Source of the DNA: an uncultured Eubacteriales bacterium
Lineage (GTDB): Bacteria; Bacillota; Clostridia; Christensenellales; Aristaeellaceae
Assembly (NCBI GenBank): GCA_902765305.1
Contig: CACWZI010000039.1
Coordinates: 1-40,140 of the forward strand
Length of the DNA: 40,140 bases
Direction of reading: 5' to 3'
The notes beneath the pieces are model-generated. The model was given only the letters and a program-made list of their open reading frames with translations. It was not told the origin of the DNA and did not search any database. Each line of letters begins with the position of its first letter. Position 1 is the first letter of the stretch. Below are positions 2,898-39,984 of the stretch, piece by piece. The position numbers and the translations under genes were made by a program.

Positions 2898-2900
2898 ATA

Positions 2901-24352: not shown

Positions 24353-24376
24353 TGCGCTTTTCTCCATTGTATATCA

Positions 24377-24422: not shown

Positions 24423-24446
24423 AAAGGCGACAAAACCGTCGCCTTT
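24423..24446 (-). terminator. Terminator of the 13-gene operon
   Basis: A perfect 9-bp stem (24423-24431 with 24438-24446) with a 6-base loop follows the DUF3786 stop by six bases. TTCGTTTGAC continues on the minus strand. Confidence 0.85.
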
Positions 24447-24451: not shown

Positions 24452-25075
24452 TCACATCCGCCGCTTCAGATCGGAAATCAGTATATCCCCCACCACGGTC
24501 CGGTCCTCCGCGGAGAAGGCCTTGGGAAAATTGTCCGAAAACAGTATCTGGCTGTTGGGCGGAAATTCATCGTCTCCCTCCCAGACGATCAGGCGAACGT
24601 CGTATCCGGGCATGATCTCCAGTTGGAAGGACGCGTCCCCCTTGTCCAGCGGGATCGCGGGCAGCTGGGCCGCCGCGGCCCTGAAGGCATCCAGCCGCGT
24701 GCCGAAGGTGAAGGCCGCCCGGTTCAGGCAGCGGCCCGTGAAGGGCTTTAGGTAGACCTCCCCCCACGGCATCTCCCGGTAGGGCAAAAAGGCGCCCGTC
24801 CCCACCGACCGCCGGCCCTCGAGCAGGTATCGAATCAGCAGCATCTGCGCCGGCAGGTTGTAAAGCGCAAAGCCATCCGCCGCGGCGCTTTTGATGGAAA
24901 ACTTTGGCCAGGTGATCTGGTAGTCCACGTACAGAAGGCGCATCGTGAACACCTGCGCGTCGGGATCGTATTTTACCCCGCAGCGCTCCGCCGCCTCGAC
25001 GGGGTCCAGTTTTTCAAACAGGCCGGTATAGTGCTCAAAGGGCACGAGCTCTTTGTGGTTTTCAACATTTGGCAT
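24452..25075 (-). CDS. DUF3786 protein
   Basis: The 207-residue protein resembles DUF3786, a family of unknown function that I associate with anaerobes carrying the acetyl-CoA pathway. Notable stretches are FALYNLPAQMLLIRYLLEG, GTGAFLPYREMPWGEVYLKPF, and a C-terminal YDVRLIVWEGDDEFPPNSQILFSDNFPKAFSAED that looks like a compact alpha/beta core. There is no signal peptide or Cys cluster. The ATG at 25075 follows GGGAGGG; the longer open frame upstream overlaps the previous gene. It is the last gene of the surface cluster, yet its family link points to C1 metabolism, which makes its position odd. Confidence 0.75.
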   Translation of the reverse strand: MPNVENHKELVPFEHYTGLFEKLDPVEAAERCGVKYDPDAQVFTMRLLYVDYQITWPKFSIKSAAADGFALYNLPAQMLLIRYLLEGRRSVGTGAFLPYREMPWGEVYLKPFTGRCLNRAAFTFGTRLDAFRAAAAQLPAIPLDKGDASFQLEIMPGYDVRLIVWEGDDEFPPNSQILFSDNFPKAFSAEDRTVVGDILISDLKRRM

Positions 25076-25110
25076 GATGCAACCCTCCCTGAAATAACGG
25101 ATCGCGATCG

Positions 25111-25725
25111 TCACGGCCACCAGCGCTCCAGGATCTCCGGCAGCTCCGTACCGTTCGTCCAGGCGCTTTGCATGGCCGCGTAGGAATCCACGTTTCCGAT
25201 GATATTGGCCTTTCGCGTGTTTCTCAGCTTTGGCAGGCCGTCGGCAGGCCCATCCGTTATGACGATGCAGTCGTTGCAATCATACAGGAAATCTCGGCTG
25301 ATCCTTTGAACAGTGGCGGGTATAAAGACGAACTGCAGCTCCGGGCAATCGTTGATCGAACCGTTGCCGAGGACAGTCACGCCATCGCCAAGGCGAACGG
25401 TGCGCAATATCGGGTATCCGCTTATGACATCATAGCCGATCTCGCTGATGCCATCGCCGATGATGATGTCCGTCACCGTCTCGACCGTCATGCTCTCGCC
25501 TTCAATGAGGGCGCGCATATCCGACCCGTACAGCTTGCCCTCGCCGCCGATGTAGATCGCGCCATCCCCCAGGCGCTCGATTGACAGGTTCTCGTTTCCC
25601 CGGGAATAGGCCACATCGGCAGTCCAGCGTATGATATTCCGACCGTCAACGCACATGTACAGCAGTAAACCGAAGACCAGCGCCAGGGCGGCGAGAAACA
25701 CGCGCTTTCCGCCATCGTTCATCAT
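25111..25725 (-). CDS. Membrane-anchored leucine-rich-repeat protein (copy B)
   Basis: A 204-residue protein with one N-terminal membrane segment (about residues 7-24, KRVFLAALALVFGLLLYM). The rest is predicted outside and contains about three BspA-type (LRR_5) repeats: DIIIGDGISEIGYDVI, TVRLGDGVTVLGNGSI and FVFIPATVQRISRDFL. It ends in EILERWWP. The protein at 28135-28749 has the same length, anchor, repeats and VLARWWP end, so the two are paralogues from a cassette duplication. Its start overlaps the DUF4956 stop by one base (TGATG), so translation is coupled. It probably acts in protein contacts at the cell surface. Confidence 0.85.
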   Translation of the reverse strand: MMNDGGKRVFLAALALVFGLLLYMCVDGRNIIRWTADVAYSRGNENLSIERLGDGAIYIGGEGKLYGSDMRALIEGESMTVETVTDIIIGDGISEIGYDVISGYPILRTVRLGDGVTVLGNGSINDCPELQFVFIPATVQRISRDFLYDCNDCIVITDGPADGLPKLRNTRKANIIGNVDSYAAMQSAWTNGTELPEILERWWP

Positions 25726-26399
25726 CAGTCGATCGTCCCCTCCTGCACCAGCAGCGATACGTCGCTGAACACGCCCGTCTGCCGCAGCTCCCGGATCAGG
25801 CCCGCGCTGTCCTTCACCTTGCGCACCTCGATGATCAGGTTCACCGCGTCGTTGTGCACGCTCTCGGTGCGCACGTTGTACCACCTGGCGTACTTCTTCA
25901 CGATGTCCATCGTCTGCTTCTCGTCATAGGGATAGCTGCCGTCCAGCACCAGTATGCGGTTGCGCGCCACCCCGGGCACCTCGTCCGACAGCAGTATCGC
26001 GATGCCGAGGATCAGCGCCAGCGGCAGGGCGATGAAGTACAGCCCCGCCCCGCAGATGATGCCCGTGGCGATGGACCAGAACAGGAACACCAGGTCAAGC
26101 GGATTTTTGATGGCCGTTCTGAAGCGCACGATGGAAAGCGCGCCTACCATGCCCAGAGACACCACCACGCTGGCCTGGATCGTCAGGATCACCGACACGG
26201 TGATCACCGACAGCGCCACCAGGGACACCGCGAATTCCTTGGAAAAGAAGTACTTCCTCGATTTGAAGTAGTACACCGCGCAGATCACCAGCGCAATCGC
26301 CAGGCACACCAGCATCGCCAGCACCGCATAGCGGAACGTGATCTCCGTATTGGCGTAGGATGTAAGAAAGCCCTTCTTGAAGATGTCCTTGAAGCTCAT
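25725..26399 (-). CDS. DUF4956 membrane protein
   Basis: The 224-residue protein has four to five membrane segments in its first 140 residues and a soluble C-terminal alpha/beta domain (YDEKQTMDIVKKYARWYNVRTESV onward). SLGMVGALSIVRFRTAIKNPLDLVFLFWSIATGIICG is the conserved DUF4956 core (about 81-117). In other bacteria this family is commonly encoded next to VTC-type polyphosphate polymerase-like genes and CotH proteins, as here. It overlaps the CotH-2 stop by four bases (ATGA) and the LRR start by one, so all three are co-translated. Function is unknown; a role with the VTC protein in making or moving a phosphate-containing polymer is an inference. Confidence 0.88.
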   Translation of the reverse strand: MSFKDIFKKGFLTSYANTEITFRYAVLAMLVCLAIALVICAVYYFKSRKYFFSKEFAVSLVALSVITVSVILTIQASVVVSLGMVGALSIVRFRTAIKNPLDLVFLFWSIATGIICGAGLYFIALPLALILGIAILLSDEVPGVARNRILVLDGSYPYDEKQTMDIVKKYARWYNVRTESVHNDAVNLIIEVRKVKDSAGLIRELRQTGVFSDVSLLVQEGTID

Positions 26400-28087
26400 G
26401 AATCTTTACCTCCATACGTATTGATGATATATGTCTGACGCAGGCGGAAGAATTCCCTGACCTGTTCGCAGCCTGCATAAAACAGCTTGTCCATGTCGTA
26501 CTTTCCGTAAAAGCGCTGATACTTCTTTTCGATGGCAGCCGCCATATCGGATTCGTAGGCGTCTACAAAGGCGTCCGTGCGTTCAGGCGCGAAGGTCTCC
26601 TCTGCCAGCTGCACCAGCTTTTCGGTGAACCGTCTGTAAAAATCGTCGTTCTGCATCAGGCTGGCGAACAGCGCGTCCAGGTTGCAGGCGCGCCGTGCCG
26701 TATCCACCTTGGCATTCTCAACGCGCGAGGTGTGGTCCAGGTCAAACAGCATCCAGCGCCACCGTCCGTCGGAAAAGACGTCGCTCGCCTTGCGCCGGCT
26801 TCGCCAAAGGGCAATATTGTTGGTGGGCCAGTCGGTGCTGGCGATATAGACCTCGAAGGCGTAGTAGTCGATACACGATTGCAGATCGATCAGCTCACCG
26901 GCACGGGCATAGGCCTCCGGGGAACGCATATCGCTGTCCGCGATATACGCAACCATGTCCTCGTAGAGCTTCAGGTCCTCGTCTTCCCCGATCTCAATGT
27001 TTCCCACCTTGACCGATATGATATTGTCCCTTCTTACGCCATATTCCTGGTTCAGGTAATCGGCCTTAAATCGCGTGCAGAGCCAATAGACGCCCCAGTA
27101 TTCCCCGTCCAGAAAGAGCACGCACGGGCAGTATTCCGGGTTGGCCACATCCGCGTCGGTGATCATCTCATGGAGCATGTAATCCCTGAGCATCAGATCG
27201 TTGGCGCCATTGTACAGGTTCAGGCGGTTCAGCCTGTATGCCTTGCCGAACAGGCCGCCTGTTTCAAAGGCTTCGCAGCCGTATTGTTTGCGGGCGTAGA
27301 TGTTCAGATTCTTCGGCATCTGATAGCGGGTCGCCCTGCCCTGGATCCGAATGCCGCAGGGGCCGGAAAAGACTGCGTTGCCCCCGGCGTCAAAGCAGTG
27401 AACGACCGCTTCGCGCTCCCACTCCCTGCCCCGCTGCTTGTAATTGGCCGGCCAGGAGAATACGCCAGCCTCGCCCTCATACTGGACGACGCCGTCCTTC
27501 AGCGATTCCTTGAATCGATCACCGAGCACATAGATGCCCTTCTCGTCATCAAACAGATTCGAAGGATCCGTGACGATGGACATGACGTTCATGCCGGCAT
27601 AGCCGGACCTTTCCCCATAGCCCACGAAATAGACTGCCGTGGACACCGGGCTGCAATGGCCGGAGGCGTCGACGCTCACGGCCCGCACCACGGTCGCCTT
27701 GTCCACGGGCTTTTTGGGCACCCGGTATTTCAGGTACTGCTTGACGCCGTTTTGCTCCAGCAGCGCCTTGTCGTAGAACACCGAAGTTTCGGTGATGGCG
27801 CTGTACACGTTTTCCTTGGGGCTGGCGTCCTCTATGAGGATCGGCCCGGTATAGGGCGTCGACCGGGCGTCGGGGTCGCTGCTGTCCAGCGTATAGTAGA
27901 TCGGGTTCCCGTCACCTGTCAGCTCCAGCCGGAAGGCGTCGTCGTAAAAGCCGGAGGGCCGTGAGAAGGCAACCTCAGTAAGCATGCCCTGTTCATCGCC
28001 CCGGTTCAGGGCGAATGCCAGCATGCCCGCCAGGGCCGCAATGCCCAGGCAGCAGCTCGCCAAAGTCTTCCACTGAAGTCTCAACAT
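26396..28087 (-). CDS. CotH-like kinase, membrane anchored (copy B)
   Basis: The 563-residue protein has an N-terminal signal anchor (about 8-26). A chitobiase-like beta-sandwich follows (about 40-155; SGFYDDAFRLEL and IYYTLDSSDPDARSTPYTGPILIED are its hallmark), then a CotH kinase domain (about 165-560). Kinase motifs visible are CGIRIQGRATRYQMPKN (nucleotide-binding Arg/Lys region, 244-260), the catalytic loop TDWPTNN (418-424) and the metal-binding FDLD (448-451). CotH kinases phosphorylate secreted proteins such as spore coat proteins. It shares length, domain order and motifs with the protein at 29495-31186. GGGAGG precedes the ATG. Its extracytoplasmic substrate is unknown. Confidence 0.9.
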   Translation of the reverse strand: MLRLQWKTLASCCLGIAALAGMLAFALNRGDEQGMLTEVAFSRPSGFYDDAFRLELTGDGNPIYYTLDSSDPDARSTPYTGPILIEDASPKENVYSAITETSVFYDKALLEQNGVKQYLKYRVPKKPVDKATVVRAVSVDASGHCSPVSTAVYFVGYGERSGYAGMNVMSIVTDPSNLFDDEKGIYVLGDRFKESLKDGVVQYEGEAGVFSWPANYKQRGREWEREAVVHCFDAGGNAVFSGPCGIRIQGRATRYQMPKNLNIYARKQYGCEAFETGGLFGKAYRLNRLNLYNGANDLMLRDYMLHEMITDADVANPEYCPCVLFLDGEYWGVYWLCTRFKADYLNQEYGVRRDNIISVKVGNIEIGEDEDLKLYEDMVAYIADSDMRSPEAYARAGELIDLQSCIDYYAFEVYIASTDWPTNNIALWRSRRKASDVFSDGRWRWMLFDLDHTSRVENAKVDTARRACNLDALFASLMQNDDFYRRFTEKLVQLAEETFAPERTDAFVDAYESDMAAAIEKKYQRFYGKYDMDKLFYAGCEQVREFFRLRQTYIINTYGGKDS

Positions 28088-28134
28088 TGGCGCCTCCCGT
28101 CCCGTATTTCTGTCATCCGATCAACCAATCACAG

Positions 28135-28749
28135 TCATGGCCACCAGCGCGCCAGCACGTCCGGCAGGGCGGCATCGGCGTCCATCGCCGAGCGCAGTCC
28201 CTCAAAGGAATCCACCTCGGCGATAATGCTTTCCGGCTCCACGTTTTCCAGGGGTGGCAGGTCTTCGGACCGGGCGTCGGTCACCACGCGGCACTGCTCG
28301 CACGCGTGCAGAAAGCCCGCCCCGATCTCCCTGGCTGCTGAGGGCAAATACAGCCACTTCAGGGACGCGCAATAATTCAGCGCCCCCGGCGCGACCCGGA
28401 CCACGCTGCTGCCCAGCTTCAGCGTCTCCAGGGTTTTTATGTGATAAAAGGCCTTATAACCGATTTCCGCAATGCCGTCCCCCACGATGACATCCCTGAC
28501 TTCAGCGGTATGGATGCCTGCCATCTTCAGCATCGCCTTCAGGTCGTTGGCATACAGCTTGCCCTCCCCGTCGATGCGGATGACGCCATCCTCCTCCAGG
28601 CTCAGCGAGAGCGCCATGTTCTTCCTGGGATATTCCCGCTCAACGGCCATCTCGCCATCGACGGACCGACTGGCAAGCAGGGCAAAAAGCAGCGCAAAGC
28701 ATGCCACCAGAAGCGCGAGAAAAACCCGCTTTGCCCCGTTGCTCCTCAT
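28135..28749 (-). CDS. Membrane-anchored leucine-rich-repeat protein (copy A)
   Basis: A 204-residue paralogue of the protein at 25111-25725. It has one N-terminal membrane anchor (GAKRVFLALLVACFALLFALL), an acidic linker, then BspA-type repeats: DVIVGDGIAEIGYKAF, TLKLGSSVVRVAPGAL and WLYLPSAAREIGAGFL. It ends in VLARWWP. It follows the VTC-like gene by 27 bases and precedes CotH copy B by 47. The domain set suggests an outward-facing adaptor for the kinase or polymer enzymes encoded alongside. The AGGAAGGG ribosome site lies rather far (about 14 bases) from the ATG. Confidence 0.85.
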   Translation of the reverse strand: MRSNGAKRVFLALLVACFALLFALLASRSVDGEMAVEREYPRKNMALSLSLEEDGVIRIDGEGKLYANDLKAMLKMAGIHTAEVRDVIVGDGIAEIGYKAFYHIKTLETLKLGSSVVRVAPGALNYCASLKWLYLPSAAREIGAGFLHACEQCRVVTDARSEDLPPLENVEPESIIAEVDSFEGLRSAMDADAALPDVLARWWP

Positions 28750-28776
28750 TCAGCCGACTGTCCCTTCCTGTAGATT

Positions 28777-29529
28777 TCACCCAAGCGCATTGATCTTTCC
28801 CCCAATGGCCCTGCAGCCCAGATAGAATTTCGAGAAGGTGGTCTGACGCATGTGGCCGTTGTCGATCAACTGGTAGATCACATCCGGAAGGAAGTCGTCG
28901 TACTTGACCTCCAGTACGTGATAGCCTGTGGGCAGCACCGCAATTCTGGACGTCCTGGCTTCAAAGATGTCCCGGACCCGGTAAGAAGCAGAGATATACC
29001 GGTCGAAGGTGATCCTGACGTTGCCTGCTGGATAGATGTAGGGCTTGCGAACATATTCCCCCAGCATCACCGGACGCAGTCCCGCGGTTTCCCGCTGCAC
29101 GATCCACTCGTCGAGCAGCGGATGCTGCCCGAGGCAGTCCGATATGGATTCGCCCGCCAGCATCCTCATGCATGTCTCCCGGTCGATCAGGCAGTTCCGC
29201 TTTCCCGTCATGCCGTGGCTCTTGATCTTCTTTTCCAACGAGATGCGCGCATCGGACAAGTTGTAGGCGCGGATGCGGAACTTTTCCCTGGGATCCACGC
29301 CATCCTCGTTTTCAAAGAAGCGGCTTCTCTGGTAGTCGTCAAAATAGACGCTGCGTATCAGGTATTCGCCGTTCTTGTCGGCATGGGGATCGGGCTTCAT
29401 CACCGCTTTGAGCTTCTGCTCGATGATCCGCAGCTCCAGGTCGCTGCAGATGTACTTGAGCTCGTGTCGGTACTTGTCCGCGGCCAGCACCGTCTTATCG
29501 CTTTTTCCTGCCGTAATTTTCAATGACAT
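28777..29529 (-). CDS. VTC-domain protein, polyphosphate polymerase-like
   Basis: The 250-residue protein is a VTC domain, the tunnel fold that in yeast Vtc4 makes polyphosphate from ATP. Conserved elements run in order: YRHELKYICS (basic residue lining the tunnel), LIRSVYFDDY, FRIRAYN, ISLEKKIKSHG, VRITFDRYIS, VLEVKYDDFLP (catalytic Glu) and SKFYLGC. There is no membrane segment, so it acts in the cytosol, perhaps docked to the DUF4956 membrane protein. The start codon overlaps the CotH-1 gene by 35 bases; the ATG at 29529 has GAGG seven bases upstream. The product may be polyphosphate or another nucleotide-derived modification; this is inferred. Confidence 0.9.
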   Translation of the reverse strand: MSLKITAGKSDKTVLAADKYRHELKYICSDLELRIIEQKLKAVMKPDPHADKNGEYLIRSVYFDDYQRSRFFENEDGVDPREKFRIRAYNLSDARISLEKKIKSHGMTGKRNCLIDRETCMRMLAGESISDCLGQHPLLDEWIVQRETAGLRPVMLGEYVRKPYIYPAGNVRITFDRYISASYRVRDIFEARTSRIAVLPTGYHVLEVKYDDFLPDVIYQLIDNGHMRQTTFSKFYLGCRAIGGKINALG

Positions 29530-31186
29530 AATCATACCTCAACCGGAAAAAGTCCTTGATCTTCTCACAGGCTTCCACAAAGTCCTCTTCCGTCCTGCCA
29601 TTCATGAATCGGATGTATTCGTTGCCCATAACATGGCGCATACGCCCTTCGTATTCGTCCACAAAAGCGTTTACCCGCTCTGGGTAGAAATTGTTCCTTG
29701 CAAGCTCGACCATTTTCTCTTTGAGTGCCTTCCTGAAGGTCCCGTTGTCGTAAAGGCTCGCCAGGATTGGATCCCGCTTGGTGGTGCGATTGATGAAATC
29801 GTTGTCCGCACGCGCAGTGTCCATGGACAGGTTGACGTCAAACAGCGCCCATCGCCACTTTCCGTCCGCGTCCGGTTGGTCCGAACCATTGCGAACGCGC
29901 CACAGGGAACGATTGTTACCCGGCCAGTCCGTGTTGCAGATGTACAGCTCTATCGCATAATAATCGATCCAGCTTTCCATATCGACGATCTCGCACACAC
30001 GGGCATAGTTCGCCTCATCGCTCAAATCGTTGTCTGCAATCGTGTACAGCATATCCTTGTAGGCCTTGAAATCCGAATCGTCGCCAACCTCGATGTGATC
30101 GACCTTGGTCACGATCACGTCCTCGAAGCCATACTTGCCGGCGAAGTAATCCTCCTTGAACCGGGGGGTCAACCAGTAGACGCCCCAGTATTCACCGTCC
30201 AGGAAGAGCGCATAGGGCTCGTATTCCCGCGTCAGCACATCGCAATCCGCCACAAGGGTATTGACCAGCAAATCGTGAATCTTCGTCTCCACGCCCTGGC
30301 CCCCCGCGTTCAGGTTCAGGCTGTGCAGCTGCCAATCCTCGCCAAACAGGGGCAGCGCCGGTATGGATTCGCTGCCATAGCGCTTCCGTGCGTAGATATT
30401 CAGGCTCTTGGGCAGCATGTACCGGCTGGCGCCCCCCTGTATGCGTATACCGAAATCGCCGGACAGCGTCAGGTTTCGTTCGGTATCGAAAAAACAGATG
30501 TGCGCCTCCCGCTCCCATTGGCTGCCCTTGTTCTTGTAATTGCCCGCCCAGTTGCCAAAGTTTGCAATCGCCGGCGGCACGCCCGCGCCTTCCACGAGGG
30601 TATCGTCGAAGGTCTTGCCCAGGACGTAGATGCCCTTGTCGAAATCGAACAGGTTGTCGGGGTTTGTGGTGATGGCGACGATGTTCATGCCGTCATAGGC
30701 TTCCTTTTTGCCAAAGCCGACAAAGTAGATGCCATTGACGACGTCGCTGCGGTTTCCGAAAGCGTCAATACAGACGGCTCGAACGACCGAAGCCTTGTCC
30801 ACGGGCTGTTTCGGCGTCGTAAAACCGTACTTGGGCTCGCGACCGGCGACTTCCAGTATGTCCGACCTTAATTCAATGCAGACATCCTCGATCATACTGT
30901 AGACATTCGGATTGCTGCTGGCATCTTCGATCAATATGGGCCCGGTGTACAGCAGGGAATGTTCGTCCGGCTCGGTGGAATCCAGCGTATAGCGAATCTC
31001 CCCCCTGTCACAGACCATCTCCAGATAAAACGAGTCGTCGTAGAAGCCGGATTCCATGGAAAGCCTCACCGGAGTAACGCCCTCGCCGTTGTCGCCTTCG
31101 CCCTGACCCGGTCCCAAAACCAACAGGGCCACAAGCAATGCCACGCCCACCAGGCATAAGGCCAAGCCTCTGCATCTATGATTCAA
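29495..31186 (-). CDS. CotH-like kinase, membrane anchored (copy A)
   Basis: A 563-residue paralogue of the protein at 26396-28087 with the same order: signal anchor (about 8-24), chitobiase-like sandwich (SGFYDDSFYLEM, IRYTLDSTEPDEHSLLYTGPILIED) and CotH kinase domain. It has FGIRIQGGASRYMLPKS (246-261) and the catalytic loop TDWPGNN (419-425). The metal motif is FDVN (449-452) where copy B has FDLD, so the second Asp is Asn; the first Asp is kept. The start is TTG at 31186 with GGAGG nine bases upstream. It lies 34 bases after the synthase-like fusion gene. The two copies may have different substrates. Confidence 0.9.
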   Translation of the reverse strand: MNHRCRGLALCLVGVALLVALLVLGPGQGEGDNGEGVTPVRLSMESGFYDDSFYLEMVCDRGEIRYTLDSTEPDEHSLLYTGPILIEDASSNPNVYSMIEDVCIELRSDILEVAGREPKYGFTTPKQPVDKASVVRAVCIDAFGNRSDVVNGIYFVGFGKKEAYDGMNIVAITTNPDNLFDFDKGIYVLGKTFDDTLVEGAGVPPAIANFGNWAGNYKNKGSQWEREAHICFFDTERNLTLSGDFGIRIQGGASRYMLPKSLNIYARKRYGSESIPALPLFGEDWQLHSLNLNAGGQGVETKIHDLLVNTLVADCDVLTREYEPYALFLDGEYWGVYWLTPRFKEDYFAGKYGFEDVIVTKVDHIEVGDDSDFKAYKDMLYTIADNDLSDEANYARVCEIVDMESWIDYYAIELYICNTDWPGNNRSLWRVRNGSDQPDADGKWRWALFDVNLSMDTARADNDFINRTTKRDPILASLYDNGTFRKALKEKMVELARNNFYPERVNAFVDEYEGRMRHVMGNEYIRFMNGRTEEDFVEACEKIKDFFRLRYDYVIENYGRKKR

Positions 31187-31220
31187 TCCGCAGAACCTCC
31201 ACTTTCAAGCGGTCATTTCC

Positions 31221-34073
31221 TCAGGGATCAGCGGATAACCCGGTCTTCACTGATCCTCCCGGTGCGAACAGCGCCGGTTCCAGTCGCGTGCCCTCGCCGT
31301 TGAGGTTGTATTCCATGCAAAAATAATCGCTGACCGTGTGCGCCAGTGGCGCGTCCTCATCCACGTAATGCAGAAGGCCCCCGCGGTCATAAAAGGCGAT
31401 TCGTCGGGATTCCTCGACCGTTTCCGAACCGACGTTGGTGTATACCGCGATATCCCGGTTCATATCGAGGATGTACCTGTAATACCAGGAAAGTGGCACC
31501 CCGGCAGCGCGCAGCATGGCGGGCATCAGGCAGCACAGATCCATGCTCTCCGTCCGGGGAAGGACCTCGTCCTCCAGATCCAGGGGATAGTTTGCCCAGA
31601 TGTAGAAGGGCGTCTGCTTGCCCTTGCGCTCGGCCAGCGCCCGGTCCTGCCATTTGCACAGGTCTTCCAGCGCGGGCAGGAAGCTGGGTGAATGATCCCC
31701 CACCATGCATACGACGACCCGCCTGCCCGTCTGTTCATACAGCTGGGTATAATACTGCTGCATGTACTCGATCATCGCGTCCGTATACGTCAGGCAGGAC
31801 AGGTATTCGTTGATCTTGTCCACCAGCGACTGGTCCGCCGTGGCGGGATGGCTATGAACCAACGCCTGCTCAGGGCTGTTGACGGTCCAGTCTCCATGGT
31901 TTTGCATGGTAGCAAGGAAGGCGAAGCGCGGGCTGTCCTGCGGCATGTCATCCATGAAGCGAATCAGGTTTTTCAGTGCCGACGTGTCCGTGATCTCGTG
32001 ATCCTTATTGCGATCGGCATAATACTCCAGATCCGTAAAATCCTGTATAAAGTAGCTCCGGTCGATGCCCATCTGCGACCAGCTCATGCCCCGGTGATAG
32101 TTCTGGGATTCATGGGGATGGGCGGCGACGGTGGAATAGCCGAGCTGCTTCAGGTACCGCGGCAGGGTGACCGTGTCGGCAAAGTTCAGGCGGTTGAAGG
32201 GGGCGTAGGCGTTGATCAGCGTCATGGAATTGCCCGTCAGCATCTCGTACTCCGTGCCGTTGGTGCCTCCGCCGGTGAGTGGGACCTCCGCATAGCCCTT
32301 GATCGCGTTGTCCAACGCCCGGTAGTGCTTCAGATAATCGACGTCCGCGCCGGTATCGATGTATCGGTCGAGATCGTACCAGGTCTCGTTGAGGATCATC
32401 ACGATGTCCGGATAAGCATCGCTGCCCGCCGGGACAGTGTCCCTATCCTGACTGCGCGCCGCTTCGGCGAGTTCGGCAATGCGCTCATCCGAATAGCCGT
32501 CGGGCTTATACACCGAAAACTCCATATTGGCCAGCGTCGATTCCACCGTACCGGACAGGTACCCGATCTTCGCGTAAAGGCTGCCCCAGCTCCAGATGTT
32601 GTCCTGCCGTTCGATGATCGGGACCGCCGAAAAGTAGCTGAAATACAGGCTGACCACCGCCGCCAGCAGGCATGCCAGCCGATTGACCAGGCGCTGTCTG
32701 CGGGTATACAAATCGCGCAGGGGCCTTGCGCACAGCCAGGCCAGTATGCAGCAGGCCGCGGCAGCCGCCTCCAGCAGCAATATGCGCCCCGCAATGGCGT
32801 CCACAGACAGGTCGTAGCTGCTGATCACTCCCGTGACGGTGCCCACATTGTGGATGTCCTCCACCGTCAGCAGCGCCCCGTGGTACTTCATCGTGTAGTG
32901 GTTGGCGATGGCCAGCAGCGTCATCAGCACGGTCACCGTCAGTCCTGCCGGCAGCCAATGCCCGATCAAAGCGCGGAGTACCAGTATCAGGCAAAATATC
33001 GCCAGCACATTGACCATCGCCCTGATCGGCCACTGCTGTGCGGCGAGGTAGGAAAACTGGGCGTAGGCGTCCATGGACGTCTCCAGTTCCAGTCGCAACA
33101 GGAAGGGCACGGCCAGTGTGAGCAAAATCGCGGGAATGCTGCGCCAGCTGCGGCGAAGCGCCGCCTCCAGACGGCGGTAGCCCCAGTCCAGAGCGTAGAG
33201 CAGCAGGCCCGTCATCAGAAGGAAGCTCAGGTAACTCCAGAAGGCGCTGCCCGTGCCGGCGTATACCGACGCGGCCACGTGGTAATAGTACATCGCCACG
33301 TAGAACTGCGCCATCCAATAAGTCGTCCATTTGCGACCGATGAACCTGAACGGCCTGGAAAGGGTGGCAATCGTCCCGTTGTCTGGCAGGCCATCGGACA
33401 GCCGCCCGAAGCGCTGCTTCACGGCGCCCTCGCCCTGGAACAGCAAAAAACCCAGCATATAGGCCAACGGTCCCAGGACCGCGGCGATCCGGTACACCCG
33501 CGCGTTGTACATAAAGGGCAGCACCTTCAGGTACAGAAAAGCCTGAAAAGCGATTCCCCCGGCGAGCACCGACAGTGCCAACCCCGTCCCCTTCTTCCGC
33601 TTTGCGATCGGGAACAGCGCCGCGCAAAAGGCACAAATGGCGATCGATGAAATCAGCCAGGTGCCCTCGTGGATGTTGTTGGACAGGGCAAGTATCGCCC
33701 TGCTGACATTCAGGAAGCCCAGGTTCCTGAACATCGGGCAATAGATCGGAGATTCCGATATCTCGCAGAAAAACAGGCCTCCGATCAGCACCAGTGGCGC
33801 GCAGACCTTCCAATAGGATACATAGTATTCCAGCGCTCGTTTGACCGGCGAAGCCGGCGCTTTATCCCCCGTATCCGCCGCCTGCATGCCTTCAATGAAG
33901 TAAAGCAGCGTCATGCTGATCAGGAATGCCGGCGCGGAGGTCAAAAACCCCCCTGGAATTGCAGTCAGCCACTGCGTCGGCAGACGGGTGGGGTCGCCAA
34001 ACATGATGAACCACAGTATCGCAAGGCAGGCAAAGCCCTGTAAGGCGTTTACAAGGTTCCTTCTCTTCGGCAA
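31221..34073 (-). CDS. Acyltransferase-3-like / LTA synthase-like sulfatase fusion
   Basis: A 950-residue protein in three parts. Residues 1-340 hold about ten membrane segments with the look of an acyltransferase-3 (OafA-type) domain. Residues 345-480 are a second membrane block. Residues 553-900 are an extracytoplasmic LTA-synthase-type phosphotransferase: Glu563 in ILNETWYD and Thr604 in GGGTNGTEYEMLTG correspond to the metal Glu and catalytic Thr, AHPHESQNYHRG follows, and CMVGDHSPSF carries the late metal Asp/His. LtaS enzymes polymerise glycerol phosphate from lipids. Fusion to an acyl-transferring membrane part is unusual. The start is TTG at 34073 with GGAGG eight bases upstream. It lies between the SGNH and CotH genes. 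Confidence 0.88.
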   Translation of the reverse strand: MPKRRNLVNALQGFACLAILWFIMFGDPTRLPTQWLTAIPGGFLTSAPAFLISMTLLYFIEGMQAADTGDKAPASPVKRALEYYVSYWKVCAPLVLIGGLFFCEISESPIYCPMFRNLGFLNVSRAILALSNNIHEGTWLISSIAICAFCAALFPIAKRKKGTGLALSVLAGGIAFQAFLYLKVLPFMYNARVYRIAAVLGPLAYMLGFLLFQGEGAVKQRFGRLSDGLPDNGTIATLSRPFRFIGRKWTTYWMAQFYVAMYYYHVAASVYAGTGSAFWSYLSFLLMTGLLLYALDWGYRRLEAALRRSWRSIPAILLTLAVPFLLRLELETSMDAYAQFSYLAAQQWPIRAMVNVLAIFCLILVLRALIGHWLPAGLTVTVLMTLLAIANHYTMKYHGALLTVEDIHNVGTVTGVISSYDLSVDAIAGRILLLEAAAAACCILAWLCARPLRDLYTRRQRLVNRLACLLAAVVSLYFSYFSAVPIIERQDNIWSWGSLYAKIGYLSGTVESTLANMEFSVYKPDGYSDERIAELAEAARSQDRDTVPAGSDAYPDIVMILNETWYDLDRYIDTGADVDYLKHYRALDNAIKGYAEVPLTGGGTNGTEYEMLTGNSMTLINAYAPFNRLNFADTVTLPRYLKQLGYSTVAAHPHESQNYHRGMSWSQMGIDRSYFIQDFTDLEYYADRNKDHEITDTSALKNLIRFMDDMPQDSPRFAFLATMQNHGDWTVNSPEQALVHSHPATADQSLVDKINEYLSCLTYTDAMIEYMQQYYTQLYEQTGRRVVVCMVGDHSPSFLPALEDLCKWQDRALAERKGKQTPFYIWANYPLDLEDEVLPRTESMDLCCLMPAMLRAAGVPLSWYYRYILDMNRDIAVYTNVGSETVEESRRIAFYDRGGLLHYVDEDAPLAHTVSDYFCMEYNLNGEGTRLEPALFAPGGSVKTGLSADP

Positions 34074-34130
34074 AGCGATAAACCTCCGTAGAAATAACAG
34101 TGAATCAGGCCCTATTCAGCGCCGAATGCC

Positions 34131-35765
34131 TCAGATGCCCTTCATCTGGCCGTGGACGTATTCGATGATTTTCAGGCGCATGTCTTCCTTGTATTCCGTA
34201 TTCTGTTGTGCCGTCACTGCTTTGGACGCGGTATTGAAGCAGACGCTGTCGACGATGCAGCCCAGTTTGTTGTCATAAACCACGAAATGTACGCCCTGGC
34301 CCGGGGAATCGTAGCGTTTTCCATCGATGACGATCGAACCTGCAGACCTGGATTTGGTCTTCTTGCTGCTCAATTTGCAATTCAGCCCGTTCTCAAGGTC
34401 AACCTTGATTGAACAGGCATTTTTGCCATTGCGCTCTTCAATGATCCGGCCCTGGCTCGAAACGCTCACATAAGCCGCGTTCTTCTTTTCCCTCAGGTCG
34501 AACTTTGTTCCAGTGGTTTCCTCAAACGCCTGTTGGGCCTCGTCGCTCCAATACTTACCCAGGCCGTTTGACACGATGGTGAAGAGCACATAATCGCCCT
34601 CCCGCACGCGCTCGAGATACTTCACAAGATCGTACTCCAATTCGAGGTTCAGGTATTCCATCTCCTCGGCAAACACCTGGCTTTGATACGACCACTGCCT
34701 GTCCCACGTTTCATTGTGTTCTGAAGACAGGCCGAACTCCTCCTGGAGCCACTTCAGCACCCTGGCGGTGATCTTCTTCGTGCCGCGGTAATTGACATGC
34801 TCACCGCTGTCGCTGGAATCCCTGAACCAGTCCAGGCCGATGTCCTCGTAACACATATCGAAGAACTTCACGCCCATCTTCTCCGCCAGCGCTTCGGTCA
34901 TCTCGTGCTTGTTGAAGCTCCAATAGCCCCTGTGCTCGGTCGTCGTGCAGACAGGCACCTTCATAAAGACCAGCTGTGCACCGTGTTCACGGCACAACTG
35001 CTGCATATTCAACAGGTAAGGTTCGTTGGCCGCAATGCTGTCCGTGAGCTTTTCCTTCCGGTCGTCGTCACTGGCATAGTCATCGTTCGGATCGAGCATG
35101 GCCTTGACGATTTTGTAGTTCTCCTTTTCCACGGGCACAGTGTCAAAGGTTGCCACGTATCCTTTGCGCTGGTAGAGATCCTTCAGGTACATCTCCACAT
35201 TATCCCGCTGGGTCAGTCGGTAGTTTGTGTGATACCTGAGCAGGGAGATAACAGAGCTCAGGATGTATTTCCAATCGTTCTCCCTGTCCTGCAGCTTCGC
35301 GATCTCGGTCATCAGCGTCCATTTTTCCCGAATTCTGCTCCAGGGAAGGCTGTTGACCATTTCCTCGTACTTGGCGGCGCTCTGCATCTCCTTTTCGGTA
35401 TAGAAGAAGCCGCTGGCATCGACCACCACCAGCTTGGGGGATTGGTCGTGCAGAATGGCACTGAGCAGGTGGTACGCCACAGGGATGCGCTGGTTGGTGC
35501 TCGCCAGGTTGTAGGCGCGAACGCCGGCGATGTCGTACATCGTCATCGGGGAAATCGAGCAAAAGGTCTGGCTCGTGCCGAAAAAGACGGCGTCAATACT
35601 GCCCTTTGGCTCGTTGAAGGCGCTTCTTATGCTCTTGAGGGAGCGCCGGTTGTGCTCCGGCCAGTCGAAATCCGGCGTGACCACCTCCTGGACCCATGCC
35701 AGTGTGGCAAACAGCAGCATAAAGAATACGATGGCGCCCGCCGCTCTCTTGATTTTTATACTCAT
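34131..35765 (-). CDS. SGNH-type (DltD/AlgJ-like) protein with C-terminal ILEI-like domain
   Basis: A 544-residue membrane-anchored protein. One N-terminal segment (about 8-24) is followed by an SGNH-like domain with VFFGTSQTFCSISP (nucleophile Ser65) and a DSGEHVNYRG block near residue 325 that supplies the Asp and His. Such proteins partner MBOAT transferases (DltD with DltB, AlgX/J with AlgI) and move acyl groups onto surface polymers. The C-terminal ~150 residues (from EGDYVLFTIVSNGLGKYW) resemble the interleukin-like EMT inducer (ILEI/FAM3) domain, whose bacterial role is unknown. It follows the MBOAT gene by 36 bases. Confidence 0.85.
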   Translation of the reverse strand: MSIKIKRAAGAIVFFMLLFATLAWVQEVVTPDFDWPEHNRRSLKSIRSAFNEPKGSIDAVFFGTSQTFCSISPMTMYDIAGVRAYNLASTNQRIPVAYHLLSAILHDQSPKLVVVDASGFFYTEKEMQSAAKYEEMVNSLPWSRIREKWTLMTEIAKLQDRENDWKYILSSVISLLRYHTNYRLTQRDNVEMYLKDLYQRKGYVATFDTVPVEKENYKIVKAMLDPNDDYASDDDRKEKLTDSIAANEPYLLNMQQLCREHGAQLVFMKVPVCTTTEHRGYWSFNKHEMTEALAEKMGVKFFDMCYEDIGLDWFRDSSDSGEHVNYRGTKKITARVLKWLQEEFGLSSEHNETWDRQWSYQSQVFAEEMEYLNLELEYDLVKYLERVREGDYVLFTIVSNGLGKYWSDEAQQAFEETTGTKFDLREKKNAAYVSVSSQGRIIEERNGKNACSIKVDLENGLNCKLSSKKTKSRSAGSIVIDGKRYDSPGQGVHFVVYDNKLGCIVDSVCFNTASKAVTAQQNTEYKEDMRLKIIEYVHGQMKGI

Positions 35766-35801
35766 TATTGATGAATCAACCTCCAGCAGACCGTTTAAAA
35801 A

Positions 35802-37382
35802 TCAGAAGCCGGCATAGACAAATCCGGTCAGGTCGAGATTTATGCCGTAGACGCCGAACAACACCACAGCCACGACTGCCCCAATGACAAGGCCCCATCT
35901 GAACAGGAGGTTCTGCCTTTCGATCGTCTCGCGAATGTGTACGCCCTTTTCCTGCAATATGCTGACTGTCAGCAGTACAAGCACCGCCACAAAAAGCACA
36001 AACAGCTCCCAGGCGTCCAAGCCCAGCTTGAAGATGGTGCCATCCGTCAGAGCCCACCAGTTGTGGGTTGTAAATATGCTTCTGAAAATACGCCCCGCTT
36101 CGGACAATCCCTTTGCCTTGAATATGATGCGTCCGCCCATGATCAGCGCCAGCGTGCGAACGCGCTGCCATAGCCGCCAGCTGAAGCAGTCCGTTCGAAT
36201 CCTGAATCTGTCGATGATCCACTGGAATACGGGCTCAAGCTGCATGCCCAGCACGATCAATATGCCCTGGTACATGCCAAAGACGACAAACTGTGCCCCT
36301 GCCCCGTGCCATATGCCGTTGAGCAGCCACACCAGCACCATGGCCAGATAGGTGGGAATCATCTTCCCGATGCCAGGGCCGAAGAGTTTGCGGCAGTGCT
36401 TGCTCAGCACCTGGGAGGCCCTGGATATGGACAGCGGATAGAATACATAATCCCTGAACCAGGTACCCAGAGTGATGTGCCATCTGCGCCAGTACTCCGC
36501 AATGCTCCTGGAAAAATAGGGCCGCTCAAAATTGAGAGGCATGGTTATGCCCAGGATTTCAGCGGTGCCGCTGATGATGTCCATGCCGCCGGAGAAGTCA
36601 GCATAGATCTGTATGGTATAGGCCAGCGCGCCAATGATGAAGATCACGCCCTGGTATTTCGCCGAATACCCAAAAACCTTATCGGATACGCTGACCACCC
36701 TGTCAGCGATCACGAGCTTTTTGAAGAAGCCCCAGAGCATGCGCTGCATGCCGAACTTCACCCTTCGATAGTCGAAATCATGGGGCTCATAGAGCTGGTG
36801 CGCCGTTTCCCTGTAGCGACAAATCGGCCCCTGAAGGATCTGTGGAAAAAAGCACAGCCACAGCAGCAGCTTAAAATAATTGGTTTGAACCTCGCACTTG
36901 CCCCTGGTGAGGTCGATCACATAGCTGATCGCCTGAAGGGTATAAAAGGATATACCCAAGGGCAACGCCATGTGAACAAAGCTCAGGTCAGCAGAAAAGC
37001 AACGGTTGAGCGTTTCTATAAATACGTCTGCAAACTTGAATGTGACCCAAATCGCGATATTGACCGCAGCAACCAGCGCGGCATAGCACCGCTTGTCACG
37101 CTCGTTCTTTTTTTTCAGTGCCCGTTTGCTGTTTTTATCGAGTTCACCACCGGCTTCAAGCTGCCCGAGATAACGCTTCTGGCGACGATCGATCAACAGG
37201 CCGCCGACGTATATGCTCAATGAGGTCAGAAGCAGCCAAACAATCATCCTCCTGCCGCAATACAGGTAGATGACAAGGCTGGCTCCCAGCAGTATTCCCC
37301 AGCGTATGCGGCGCGGCGCGATGAAATATACCAGCGCCACAGCGACCACAAACGCCAGGTAAAACAGAGAAACGATATTCAT
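35802..37382 (-). CDS. MBOAT-family O-acyltransferase (DltB/AlgI-like)
   Basis: The 526-residue polytopic protein belongs to the MBOAT family, which moves acyl groups across the membrane to surface polymers. About 11 membrane segments are visible. Family blocks are LPLGISFYTLQAISYVID, FFPQILQGPICRY, YADFSGGMDII and FERPYFSRSIAEYWRRWHITLGTWFRDYVFYPL. The catalytic His is in LLNGIWHGAGAQF. The adjacent carrier protein and AMP ligase are what DltB uses. AAGAGGG precedes the ATG. Context favours D-alanylation or acetylation of an extracellular polymer; the acyl group is unproven. Confidence 0.93.
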   Translation of the reverse strand: MNIVSLFYLAFVVAVALVYFIAPRRIRWGILLGASLVIYLYCGRRMIVWLLLTSLSIYVGGLLIDRRQKRYLGQLEAGGELDKNSKRALKKKNERDKRCYAALVAAVNIAIWVTFKFADVFIETLNRCFSADLSFVHMALPLGISFYTLQAISYVIDLTRGKCEVQTNYFKLLLWLCFFPQILQGPICRYRETAHQLYEPHDFDYRRVKFGMQRMLWGFFKKLVIADRVVSVSDKVFGYSAKYQGVIFIIGALAYTIQIYADFSGGMDIISGTAEILGITMPLNFERPYFSRSIAEYWRRWHITLGTWFRDYVFYPLSISRASQVLSKHCRKLFGPGIGKMIPTYLAMVLVWLLNGIWHGAGAQFVVFGMYQGILIVLGMQLEPVFQWIIDRFRIRTDCFSWRLWQRVRTLALIMGGRIIFKAKGLSEAGRIFRSIFTTHNWWALTDGTIFKLGLDAWELFVLFVAVLVLLTVSILQEKGVHIRETIERQNLLFRWGLVIGAVVAVVLFGVYGINLDLTGFVYAGF

Positions 37383-37403
37383 GGATAATGCCCTCTTGTT
37401 CCG

Positions 37404-37631
37404 TTACTCGTTGCGCAGCTTTTCGATCAGCTCCAGCATCGCTTCAACGGTATTGAAGTTATCCGGTTCGAGGTCGTCCACATCGATTTCGATATCGTAA
37501 TGCTCATTCAGCTCATTGACGATGGAAATGATATCAAAAGAATCCAGTATGCCATCGTCGATCAGCTTCTTTTCATTGACAAAATCCACCTTGGGGCAGA
37601 TACCCTTAAGAATGCTCAACAGCTCGTCCAT
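37404..37631 (-). CDS. Acyl/D-alanyl carrier protein
   Basis: A 75-residue carrier protein. The phosphopantetheine site is Ser31 in DDGILDSFDIISIV, where DSFD replaces the usual DSL and resembles DltC and related carriers. The rest is the expected acidic four-helix bundle. The ATG at 37631 is chosen because GGGAGGAG precedes it. It lies 21 bases before the MBOAT gene and downstream of the AMP ligase, the expected loading enzyme. The 122 bases upstream of it contain no gene and no clear promoter. Confidence 0.93.
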   Translation of the reverse strand: MDELLSILKGICPKVDFVNEKKLIDDGILDSFDIISIVNELNEHYDIEIDVDDLEPDNFNTVEAMLELIEKLRNE

Positions 37632-37753
37632 GTTCTCTCCTCCCATCCTGTTGGGGTTTGGCCTTGGCTCCACCGGTCATGGTGTGCGCCGGCCCGTCAT
37701 AAGATGAAGACAATATCCACAAATATCTTTTGTTCAAGCGTCGCCTGCGTCTT

Positions 37754-38404
37754 CTATTCCGTCGCAAGCAGCGCGTCAACAGCTTCTTCGGTCAGGTCAG
37801 ATGAGAGCAGCGGCCAGTATTCAAGGATCTTCTCCCGCTCCCAGTCCCACCACTTCAGGCGCAGCAGCTTCTCGATGACCGACGCTTCAAAGCGGTAGCG
37901 CATGACCCTGGCCGGCACGCCCGCGACGATGGCATAGGGTGGAACGCTTTTTGTCACCACAGCGCCGCTGCCGATGACAGCGCCGTCGCCGATCACCAGA
38001 CCGCTCTTGCGGGGAATCAGCGCGCCGACGCCGATCCAGACGTCGTTACCGACGCGGACGATTTCCTCGTCCTGGTGCATGGAGAGCTTGCCCCCCAGCT
38101 TATTGAGCAAGCGATAGGAAGGCATCATCGACGCCGCGCGATAGTTGTGTTCGTTGCCGCCGATTTCCACCTTCCGGGCAATGCAGCAGTATTTTCCGAT
38201 CTCAGCCCACATGATGCCCACGTCCGCGCCAGTATAGGTCATGTCCCCGATGACGGCACTTCGGATCAGGTTGCGCTTCTCAATGTCCACATAGCTGCCG
38301 ATGGTGGAATTCAAAACAACGCAGTCGTGGTCGATGGTGGAGCGCTTGCCCAGGGTCGTATTTTTGACGACGGCGTCATCGGCAACGGATTTGATCAATG
38401 CCAT
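37754..38404 (-). CDS. Hexapeptide-repeat (left-handed beta-helix) acetyltransferase
   Basis: The 216-residue protein shows the isoleucine-patch repeats of the XAT/CatB class. Turns such as TLGKRSTIDHDCVVLNSTIGSYVDI, AVIGDMTYTG and VRVGNDVWIGVGALIP build the helix. GDGAVIGSGAVVTKSVPPYAIVAGVPARVMRYRF is the acetyl-CoA/C-terminal signature, and the catalytic His is probably in GNEHNYR. It is cytosolic. The substrate is likely a sugar or small molecule that becomes part of the surface polymer precursor. It follows the AMP ligase by 23 bases. Confidence 0.9.
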   Translation of the reverse strand: MALIKSVADDAVVKNTTLGKRSTIDHDCVVLNSTIGSYVDIEKRNLIRSAVIGDMTYTGADVGIMWAEIGKYCCIARKVEIGGNEHNYRAASMMPSYRLLNKLGGKLSMHQDEEIVRVGNDVWIGVGALIPRKSGLVIGDGAVIGSGAVVTKSVPPYAIVAGVPARVMRYRFEASVIEKLLRLKWWDWEREKILEYWPLLSSDLTEEAVDALLATE

Positions 38405-38427
38405 ATCTGTACCCTTGTTCTTTCCGA

Positions 38428-39828
38428 TTACAGTGGCGGAAGCTGACTGTAAAGCACCTTCTGGGAAGTATTCCTCGGTATGGCGGGAATGGTCCCCGCC
38501 TTCTGCAGCTTGCGATTGATGTCCATCTCATTGAACACATATTCCACCGCTTCCTCTTCGATCGCCGGATCCGTCACGTAGATCCACAGCTCGTCATCCT
38601 TGCCGCCGCAGGCGATATCGCCGGTGTCAAAGTGCTGCTTCAGCAGGCGTTCCACGTCGTCCAGGTTGATGCGCTTGCCCAGTATCTTCAAAAAGCGTTT
38701 TTTCCTGCCAACGATGTAATAGAAGCCGTCCGCATCCCGCCTGGCCATGTCGCCCGTCACCAGGCGGCCCTTGTTTTCATCCGGTTTGCTCAGGTCAGCG
38801 CCCGTCAACGCATAGCCCAGGGTGACATTGGGGCCATAGTACACCATCTCGCCCACCTGGTCCGGCCCGTCGATGACCTCGCCGTCCGCGCCGATCAGCT
38901 CGAACCTTCCGCCCGGTATCGGAATGCCCATGCTTCCCTGCTTCTCAAGGGAGCGCTCAGGCGGCAGATAGCCCATGCGGGCGGTCGCTTCAGAGGCGCC
39001 GTACATGATCACAAACCGCTTGCCGCATTCCATGGCCCAGGTGGCCAGCTTTTTGTGCAGCTCCGGTGACAGCTTGCCGCCGGCCTGGGTCATCGTCTTC
39101 AGCGACGGCATATCCCGCTTGAGTATGCGCAGCTTGTCAATGGCCTCATAGGTGAAGGGCACACCCGCAAAGGAGGTGACGCCCTCGCTGTTCACCAGGT
39201 CCCAAAACTTCTTTGCGTAAGGATTGAGGTTCGTCAGCACCAGCGTCGCACCGGCATAGATGTGGGTATTGAGGACGGACAGGCCGTAGACGTAATTCAT
39301 CGGCAGGGACGTAATTGCCCGTTCTGCCGGCGTAATGCCCAGGTACTCTATGATGGCTTCGGTATTCGAACGCAGGTTTTCATAGCTCTGGCGCACCAGC
39401 TTGGGACTGCCCGTGGAACCCGAGGTTGAAATCAGCAGGCAAAGCGCGTCGTTCATGGCATAAGGCGCGTCCACCGCCATGGACGAAAGCGTATAACCCT
39501 CCAGCTCAAGGGCGTTACTACAATCGGGCAGCTTCTCTCCCGCGTCCGAAGGCGCCCAGATCCACGCAGGGCGGTAGGCCTCGATCAGCTGGCCGAGCAA
39601 ATCACGGCTGATCCTGGCATCCAGCAGCAACGGAACATGGCCGTATTCAGTAAGCGCGAGGTAGCCCGCGACAGATGCCACAGTGTTGGTGCAAAGGCAG
39701 AATACCAGCGACCTGCCGACCAGCGGCGCGACGATCCTGCGACACAGAGCCTCCAGCTCTGCGTATGTGACCTTGCGATCCCCTTCTATGAGCGCAACGT
39801 TCTGTTCCTTGTTGCCCAGATTCCACAC
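38428..39828 (-). CDS. AMP-forming acyl ligase (DltA-like)
   Basis: An adenylating enzyme of the ANL family, 466 residues from the GTG at 39828. That GTG has GGGGAGG eight bases upstream; an ATG at 39867 would add 13 residues but has a poor ribosome site. Motifs run in order: ISTSGSTGSPK (phosphate loop, about 137-147), LPMNYVYGLSVLNTHI, IMYGASEATARM (A5), GRLVTGDMARRD (A7), GRKKRFLKILGKRI (hinge) and the catalytic Lys in SQKVLYSQ. It should activate an amino or acyl acid and load the carrier protein encoded two genes on. It is the first gene of the 13-gene operon. Confidence 0.92.
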   Translation of the reverse strand: MWNLGNKEQNVALIEGDRKVTYAELEALCRRIVAPLVGRSLVFCLCTNTVASVAGYLALTEYGHVPLLLDARISRDLLGQLIEAYRPAWIWAPSDAGEKLPDCSNALELEGYTLSSMAVDAPYAMNDALCLLISTSGSTGSPKLVRQSYENLRSNTEAIIEYLGITPAERAITSLPMNYVYGLSVLNTHIYAGATLVLTNLNPYAKKFWDLVNSEGVTSFAGVPFTYEAIDKLRILKRDMPSLKTMTQAGGKLSPELHKKLATWAMECGKRFVIMYGASEATARMGYLPPERSLEKQGSMGIPIPGGRFELIGADGEVIDGPDQVGEMVYYGPNVTLGYALTGADLSKPDENKGRLVTGDMARRDADGFYYIVGRKKRFLKILGKRINLDDVERLLKQHFDTGDIACGGKDDELWIYVTDPAIEEEAVEYVFNEMDINRKLQKAGTIPAIPRNTSQKVLYSQLPPL

Positions 39829-39914
39829 AACCAAATCCTCCCCTTGTTTTGCATGCAGGCCAACCATGCACCGGCGCTCACCTGAGCTTCATAAGTACAA
39901 AATTATTCAATGTT

Positions 39915-39923: not shown

Positions 39924-39984
39924 TATACAGTCTTTTTCGGTAGCGGCAAACCCGTTGCAACATTGATATATTTAAGTTAATTAG

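Follow-up and report, generated by a model that had tools for sequence, protein, structure and literature searches.

Contig CACWZI010000039.1 of an uncultured Eubacteriales bacterium of the family Aristaeellaceae (assembly GCA_902765305.1; a draft genome of 3.88 Mb in 177 contigs) was analysed over its entire length of 40140 bases (G000:C39; hereafter the window) and carries a cassette of 12 co-oriented genes on its minus strand (25111-39867). The interpretation that we prefer, and to which we assign roughly an even chance of being correct, is that this cassette was probably gained once and tailors a pre-existing extracytoplasmic polymer with three modifications. Sequence comparison indicates that the cassette is real, conserved, and restricted to one lineage. 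Its parts are of known kinds, and their combination is new to the literature searched, among whose titles and beginnings of abstracts no description of it was found.

A conserved cassette of 12 genes

A preliminary description of this DNA had interpreted 13 genes as a single operon that builds and decorates a phosphate-rich surface polymer. The 13 consecutive open reading frames (ORFs) on the minus strand, from 39867 down to 24452, are indeed present; neighbouring ORFs are separated by about 21-122 bases or overlap by 1-41, values that vary with the choice of start codon (the overlaps had been put at 35 bases at most). Families were assigned by Pfam scans of all 13 proteins, and NCBIfam models were applied to ten of them. 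The order is AMP-ligase, left-handed beta-helix (LbH) transferase, acyl carrier protein (ACP), MBOAT, SGNH-like, GacH-like, CotH1, VTC, leucine-rich repeat protein LRR1, CotH2, DUF4956, LRR2, and DUF3786. The last of these is a neighbour outside the cassette, because 11 genomes of the genus possess DUF3786 without the cassette, so that the operon of the preliminary description is reduced to 12 genes.

A search of 308 genomes of the family with the sulfatase-fold (GacH-like) protein gave matches at E <= 1e-30 in 18. Those from the same genus (the window's own genome, G247, G252, G258, and G263) share 72-76% identity, and the other 13 lie at 26-29%. The cassette is carried by 5 of the 28 genomes of the genus. 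The order ligase, LbH, ACP, MBOAT, SGNH-like, GacH-like, CotH1, VTC, DUF4956 recurs in all four other carriers, with DUF4956 either whole or cut off, and the proteins from ligase to VTC are 55-94% identical to those of the window, which bears out the notion of one conserved unit. A scan of the collection recovered the same four loci, which belong to the uncultured Clostridiales isolates RUG12424, RUG14340, and RUG340 and to Clostridia bacterium RGIG5665 (sheep duodenum).

The second half of the cassette is more fragmented. The full gene set was read in the window, in G247, and, over two contigs, in G263. CotH2 and LRR1 are present in these three of the five carriers, and the contigs of G252 and G258 end before them. 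The order LRR2-DUF3786-LysR is found in all five. In three of the four other carriers, the contig stops within DUF4956, which would be explained by near-identical copies of this gene, as in G247, where two copies are 96% identical in DNA. Resumed on the second contig, the cassette of G263 reads DUF4956 end, LRR1, CotH2, DUF4956, LRR2, DUF3786, LysR; that of G252 and G258 reads only DUF4956 end, LRR2, DUF3786, LysR, with the contig beginning or ending there. A DUF4956 gene between VTC and LRR1 occurs in G247 and G263 (across the two contigs) and is lacking in the window.

Protein change in the cassette is under constraint, as judged by the ratio of nonsynonymous to synonymous change (dN/dS) from simple pairwise counts with dS near saturation: the ratio is about 0.04-0.32 for the eight genes from ligase to VTC (window against four genomes) and, in the single pair available for the others, about 0.5 for LRR1, 0.39 for CotH2, 0.13 for DUF4956, and 0.26 for LRR2. 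LRR1 evolves fast and is only 44% identical to its copy in G247. Between the window and G247, DUF4956 is an outlier in dS (0.24-0.26, against 0.63-1.15 for the other genes of the pair), and the two copies of G247 (L092, 11424-12095 and 14419-15090) differ from each other by a dS of 0.08. The low values could stem from recombination between species, from conversion between copies, or from constraint at the DNA level.

Probable acquisition beside a Wood-Ljungdahl gene

The contig end upstream of the cassette (40042-40140, minus strand) holds the truncated 3' end of a gene that matches acsE of G258 at 98% DNA identity over 99 bases. The product of the G258 gene scores 467.9 bits (cut-off 370) with the CODH/ACS methyltransferase model NF040758, and the gene is located behind CdhD-type and MTHFR genes, which places the cassette next to the predicted Wood-Ljungdahl gene acsE. 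On the other flank, DUF3786 (24452-25075, minus strand; PF12654, 6.4e-51) is an older neighbour that is possibly read through from the cassette. Its orthologues, at 76-100% identity, are present in 16 of the 28 genomes of the genus, comprising the five carriers and the 11 genomes already mentioned, and LysR adjoins it in 5 of these 11. In the cassette-free G262, acsE, DUF3786, and LysR are successive, with about 92 bases from acsE to DUF3786; the two genes are about 2.2-4.8 kb apart in G016, G250, and G265, and G251 has a CODH/ACS alpha/beta gene beside DUF3786. Either the cassette was inserted at a junction resembling the one in G262, or it took the place of DNA that is present in nearer relatives.

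A tree of the 16 DUF3786 proteins (208 columns), in which several other branches are weak, unites the five carriers in one group with a support of 94/94. Mapped onto this tree, carriage of the cassette requires a single change in 92% of the bootstrap trees, and none of 500 shuffles reached so low a number. The grouping of the carriers suggests that the cassette was probably gained once.

A predicted carrier-fed acyl branch with a fused shuttle

The first five genes constitute a putative acylation branch that resembles the Dlt system (DltA-D, DltX) in possessing a ligase, a carrier protein, a DltB-like MBOAT, and an anchored SGNH-like protein. The ligase (38428-39867; PF00501, 1.7e-43; this and all following cassette genes on the minus strand) is an acyl-adenylate ligase and the proposed loader of the carrier. 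Its closest relatives of solved structure are MenE and malonyl-CoA ligase, followed with weaker scores by amino-acid synthetase domains. In DltA, the amino group is held by an aspartate. The A4 region of the ligase, LPMNYVYGLSV, lacks an aspartate, compared with FDMSV in a DltA-like relative whose own score falls short of the DltA cut-off (the row of L175 was left out of this comparison), and the DltA model TIGR01734 exceeds its cut-off in none of 14 genomes (best score 288 bits, against 559.85). The ACP (37404-37643, start codon uncertain; PF00550, 5e-6) matches the DltC model at 2.8e-10, below the cut-off, and the serine of its DSF motif, the phosphopantetheine site, is invariant in the five genomes.

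The MBOAT protein (35802-37382; PF03062, 1.5e-12) has a DltB-like core, which matches DltB structures at 2e-23, and C-terminal transmembrane (TM)-like segments that end in FVYAGF. This tail, which conforms to the acyl-shuttle motif FXYXXF, is invariant in all five carriers together with His302, His359, and Tyr523. Among the ORFs of at least 20 codons in the window and in L089-L092, no other one ends in FXYXXF, and there is no DltX-like ORF. The conservation of both histidines and of the tail matches the acyl-shuttle mechanism as outlined in the accessible part of PMC12148441. According to the same part of that paper, Dlt employs a carrier protein and a separate DltX, whereas in other MBOAT-SGNH pathways there is no carrier and the motif is part of the MBOAT itself. 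Both a carrier protein and an MBOAT-fused motif are present in the cassette. With PatA/PatB-type pathways it shares the MBOAT with a C-terminal FXYXXF and the separate SGNH-like protein, but it differs from them in its ligase and ACP, which such pathways lack in that account.

This combination is not confined to the cassette. Among 29 other MBOAT loci (the best-scoring ones, one per genome, out of 297 genomes of the order), 27 have the fused motif, 10 have an ACP within the stretch, and 8 have both (L229, L230, L238, L240, L242, L244, L246, and L248, where a fused-FXYXXF MBOAT adjoins an ACP elsewhere in the order); the serine is kept in all 10 ACPs. Predicted carrier-fed, shuttle-fused acylation is a class wider than the cassette.

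Two further proteins set the branch apart from Dlt. One is a hexapeptide acyltransferase (37754-38404; PF00132, 2.3e-11), a left-handed beta-helix protein like those of the Vat/phosphonate family (147.7 bits with TIGR03308, below the cut-off of 201.65), which the reasoning of the preliminary description did not name. The other is the SGNH-like protein (34131-35765), predicted to be a membrane-anchored SGNH-type transferase, with its additional ILEI-like C-terminal part. ILEI is matched in 2 of 5 members, and in the window copy weakly and below the cut-off; Ser65, Asp319, and His323 are invariant in all five. The predicted model of the protein (predicted TM score, pTM, of 0.53) has weak matches to GDSL/TesA/PatB folds, and a single-sequence search against solved structures gave no match.

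We infer the biochemical steps, the acceptor, and a single target shared by all three branches from these families, their retained residues, and their gene context. The ligase would adenylate a carboxylic acid, which is probably different from D-alanine, and load it onto the ACP; the hexapeptide transferase may modify the carrier-bound acid or a precursor. The MBOAT would pass the acyl group to the tyrosine of its own FVYAGF tail, from where the SGNH-ILEI protein may accept it and esterify the acceptor. The dlt logic invoked in the preliminary description persists as far as a carrier-fed acylation via MBOAT and an SGNH-like protein is concerned, but the ligase without the aspartate and the MBOAT with a tail of its own argue against Dlt proper.

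A probable GacH-like transferase in place of a polymerase

The sulfatase-fold protein (31221-34073; PF00884, 2e-21; 11 TM-like segments) had been taken for a lipoteichoic acid (LTA) polymerase. Of the solved structures, it matches only two entries of GacH (E up to 0.1), one of which, 5wcx, aligns at 4.8e-15 over residues 521-830. It scores only 26.5 bits with the curated LtaS model, whose cut-off is 970. Like GacH of the streptococcal group A carbohydrate, it has a sulfatase fold, GGGT and GDH motifs, and a TM N-terminus. Both motifs are invariant in the five carriers, as are E563, T604, D793, and H794, to which roles may be assigned by analogy with the superfamily. GacH adds glycerol phosphate to N-acetylglucosamine side chains, as stated in the available text of PMC8807736, and its homolog in the cassette would accordingly be a putative phosphoglycerol transferase that moves glycerol phosphate from a membrane lipid onto the acceptor. 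The relationship is distant, and the genus differs from the streptococci in that an RgpF-type rhamnan gene is present in 0 of 28 genomes. A rhamnan acceptor, suggested by a locus outside the genus (L144, see below), is therefore unsupported for the genus.

Among the Pfam families matched by the 13 proteins there is no glycosyltransferase or glycan-export family, which makes tailoring likelier than building; the cassette probably decorates an existing surface polymer. That, in keeping with the preliminary description, it instead makes a phosphate-rich polymer of its own, be it polyphosphate or poly-glycerolphosphate, before decorating it seems unlikely to us. A sulfatase-fold enzyme of the LTA-synthase kind and a VTC protein related to yeast Vtc4 would fit such a role, but the solved match of the former is GacH rather than LtaS, and the latter has no TM-like segment; a step of polyphosphate export would be hypothetical.

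The VTC-DUF4956-CotH set

The remaining genes form a putative phosphate-transfer set. The VTC protein (28777-29535; PF09359, 1.1e-35) contains a polyphosphate-polymerase-like tunnel domain. A profile of 36 sequences finds yeast Vtc4 (3g3q) at 1.5e-12, and many basic and acidic residues are invariant across these sequences, consistent with a putative polymerase. The two CotH-family proteins announced in the preliminary description, CotH1 (29495-31186; PF08757, 2.1e-34; one N-terminal TM-like segment) and CotH2 (26396-28087; PF08757, 1.6e-33), are 46% identical to each other and by hydropathy predicted to be anchored outside the cell. A profile of 34 CotH sequences finds spore coat protein H (5jd9) at 7.6e-29, and D419, N424, and D449 (CotH2 numbering) are invariant across the 34, as expected of putative kinases. 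Single-sequence searches of VTC and CotH2 against solved structures gave no match. DUF4956 (25725-26399; PF16316, 6.1e-16) is a membrane protein with four TM-like segments and a weak MgtC match (0.0079, below the cut-off); its predicted model (pTM 0.30) was not used for a fold search. LRR1 (28135-28749; PF13306, 8.4e-7; N-terminal TM-like segment) and LRR2 (25111-25725; PF13306, 7.5e-5, below the cut-off), the final gene of the cassette, are BspA-type repeat proteins. Together, VTC, DUF4956, and the two anchored CotH proteins with their LRR partners may transfer phosphate either to the same polymer or to proteins of the cassette. The genome of the window (G000) has ten CotH matches in eight genes and three VTC matches, and its locus on contig C89 represents a form with a CotH frame of 1033 amino acids.

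VTC is present in 117 of 120 genomes of the family. We sampled 78 non-cassette VTC loci (16 + 2 + 20 + 40), choosing the better-scoring ones except for L102 and L103, which were taken for their CotH. Neighbourhoods were scored with hidden Markov models (HMMs) made from the window proteins, which may overlook ligases or MBOATs that are only distantly related, and contig ends truncate many of the stretches. Among the carriers, the DUF4956 model detected the gene at only 2 of 4 loci, missing pieces at contig ends; whole or cut pieces are present at all four. At 77 of the 78 non-cassette loci, a DUF4956 gene is encoded on the strand of VTC no more than 300 bases away, and at 54 there is a CotH gene within 4 kb, in line with the recurring set postulated in the preliminary description. 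The ligase, ACP, and GacH-like genes are near VTC at none of the 78 loci and beside it only in the five carriers; MBOAT, SGNH, and LbH occur at one locus each. The check that the preliminary description had proposed, whether the modules are neighbours in related genomes, thus has a mixed outcome: they adjoin one another in 5 of 28 genomes of the genus, but the full combination does not extend to the other VTC loci sampled.

CotH, a polyphosphate polymerase, and DUF4956 have been described as accessory genes of Pel in Gram-positive bacteria, as far as the accessible portion of PMC7112168 goes, and their three-gene synteny was not found outside Pel, according to a passage in PMC12345266. The cassette shares with these Pel-linked sets the adjacency of the three families, but differs in its second CotH, its LRR partners, and the joined acyl and GacH-like genes. 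Moreover, PelG exceeds its cut-off in none of the nine genomes of the genus tested, in 1 of 14 of the family, and in 2 of 19 of the phylum, and it lies beside a sampled VTC locus in G686 only. The occurrence of most of the sampled VTC-DUF4956-CotH loci in PelG-free genomes is in tension with the 2025 statement of PMC12345266, at least as worded in that passage. In Clostridium perfringens, VTC and CotH genes are close to each other with proteins of 222-226 amino acids between them (in the available part of PMC2879425); at a guess, the latter are DUF4956 proteins. At locus L144 (G089), CotH, VTC, and DUF4956 adjoin a GT2 gene, and the opposite strand bears MBOAT and the rhamnan gene RgpF; the VTC protein of L144 is, at 45% identity, the closest to that of the window outside the genus among those aligned.

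A possible mechanism for this branch, which we consider unlikely, is that VTC makes polyphosphate in the cytosol, that DUF4956, an MgtC-like protein, carries either this polyphosphate or its energy through the membrane, and that the anchored CotH kinases use it outside the cell, where little ATP is available, to phosphorylate the same surface polymer that the cassette also acylates and glycerol-phosphorylates. This would amount to an ATP-independent extracytoplasmic phosphorylation that is widespread as a three-gene set.

Promoters, terminator, and neighbouring genes

The promoter region 5' of the ligase, containing TTGCCG - 18 - TATGAT (39920-39949, minus strand; found by promoter scan), is kept in all five carriers with single changes only. 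At the other end, an intrinsic terminator 3' of DUF3786 (24423-24446, minus strand), which had also been noted in the preliminary description, is readable directly in the sequence as a hairpin GGCGAC..GTCGCC followed by TTTT; the automated scan did not list it. Between 23300 and 40140 on both strands, promoter-like matches (13, against 9.3 with an s.d. of 3.2 in shuffles) and terminator-like matches (20, against 13.0 with an s.d. of 4.2) are not clearly above expectation. A sigma-70 match of 12/12 at 24418-24390 precedes the LysR gene (23438-24367). The window has just two occurrences of the 10-mer TATATCAATG, one in the LysR promoter at 24370 and one in the cassette promoter at 39961; LysR as a regulator of the cassette is a weak lead, as the 10-mer is missing at the LysR promoter of L071 and G247 does not retain the LysR site. 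Elsewhere in the window, five tRNA genes (Lys, Gly, Gly, Gly, Leu) are clustered at 2822-3253.

These data also bear on whether the cassette consists of two unrelated operons that are adjacent by chance. VTC sets that lack the acyl module are common, and ligase, ACP, and GacH-like genes are absent from the 78 other VTC loci sampled. However, the junction between the GacH-like gene and CotH1 (a gap of 34 bases in the window) is kept in all five carriers at a dS of about 0.6-1.4, and conservation of a promoter was demonstrated only at the head of the cassette, the internal gaps not having been compared in this respect. A chance adjacency therefore has little probability in our judgement.

Tailoring or regulation

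The most serious alternative, less probable in our view yet deserving attention, is that VTC-DUF4956-CotH serves regulation or phosphate homeostasis as a module linked to operons for surface polymers and performs no tailoring chemistry itself; the cassette would merely couple it to acyl and glycerol-phosphate tailoring. In Streptococcus intermedius, single deletions of the corresponding genes SIR_1592, SIR_1593, and SIR_1594 did not abolish Pel; Pel was increased in the SIR_1592 mutant and decreased in the SIR_1594 (CotH) mutant, and aggregation of both was reduced in one medium (sections of PMC12345266 available to us). The same paper presents SIR_1592 as MgtC-like, a membrane protein that contains an ACT domain; it is presumably the DUF4956 protein. 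Runs of VTC, DUF4956, and CotH alone make up 9 of the 19 parsed loci of the phylum sample, and two-component parts account for 5 of the 10 neighbour proteins scanned (chosen from 34). A purely regulatory role is at odds with the predicted anchoring of CotH1 and CotH2 outside the cell, with their retention of the residues invariant across the 34 CotH proteins, and with the presence of two CotH and two LRR genes in the cassette.

Several observations weigh against the tailoring of a pre-existing polymer that we prefer. No acceptor polymer was found, including the rhamnan indicated by RgpF. The ligase further has a match to a model of amino-acid adenylation (1.7e-36, below the cut-off), which leaves room for an amino-acid substrate. 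The SGNH assignment is of moderate strength, as GDSL_2 is detected in 3 of the 5 orthologues (best 3.6e-5) and not in that of the window, and Foldseek yielded no match of the predicted model at E <= 0.001. The persistence of Pel in the three S. intermedius deletions and the fast evolution of LRR1 and CotH2, by which the target may not be conserved, point in the same direction.

Implications

The gene content of the cassette indicates that carrier-fed acylation and shuttle-fused acylation, which have been described as separate classes, can be joined in a single gene cluster. The results further indicate that the common CotH-VTC-DUF4956 set is not tied to Pel. That the whole cassette is present in some genomes and absent from their relatives represents a natural experiment on the function of this set, which could be exploited by a comparison of the surfaces of the two groups.

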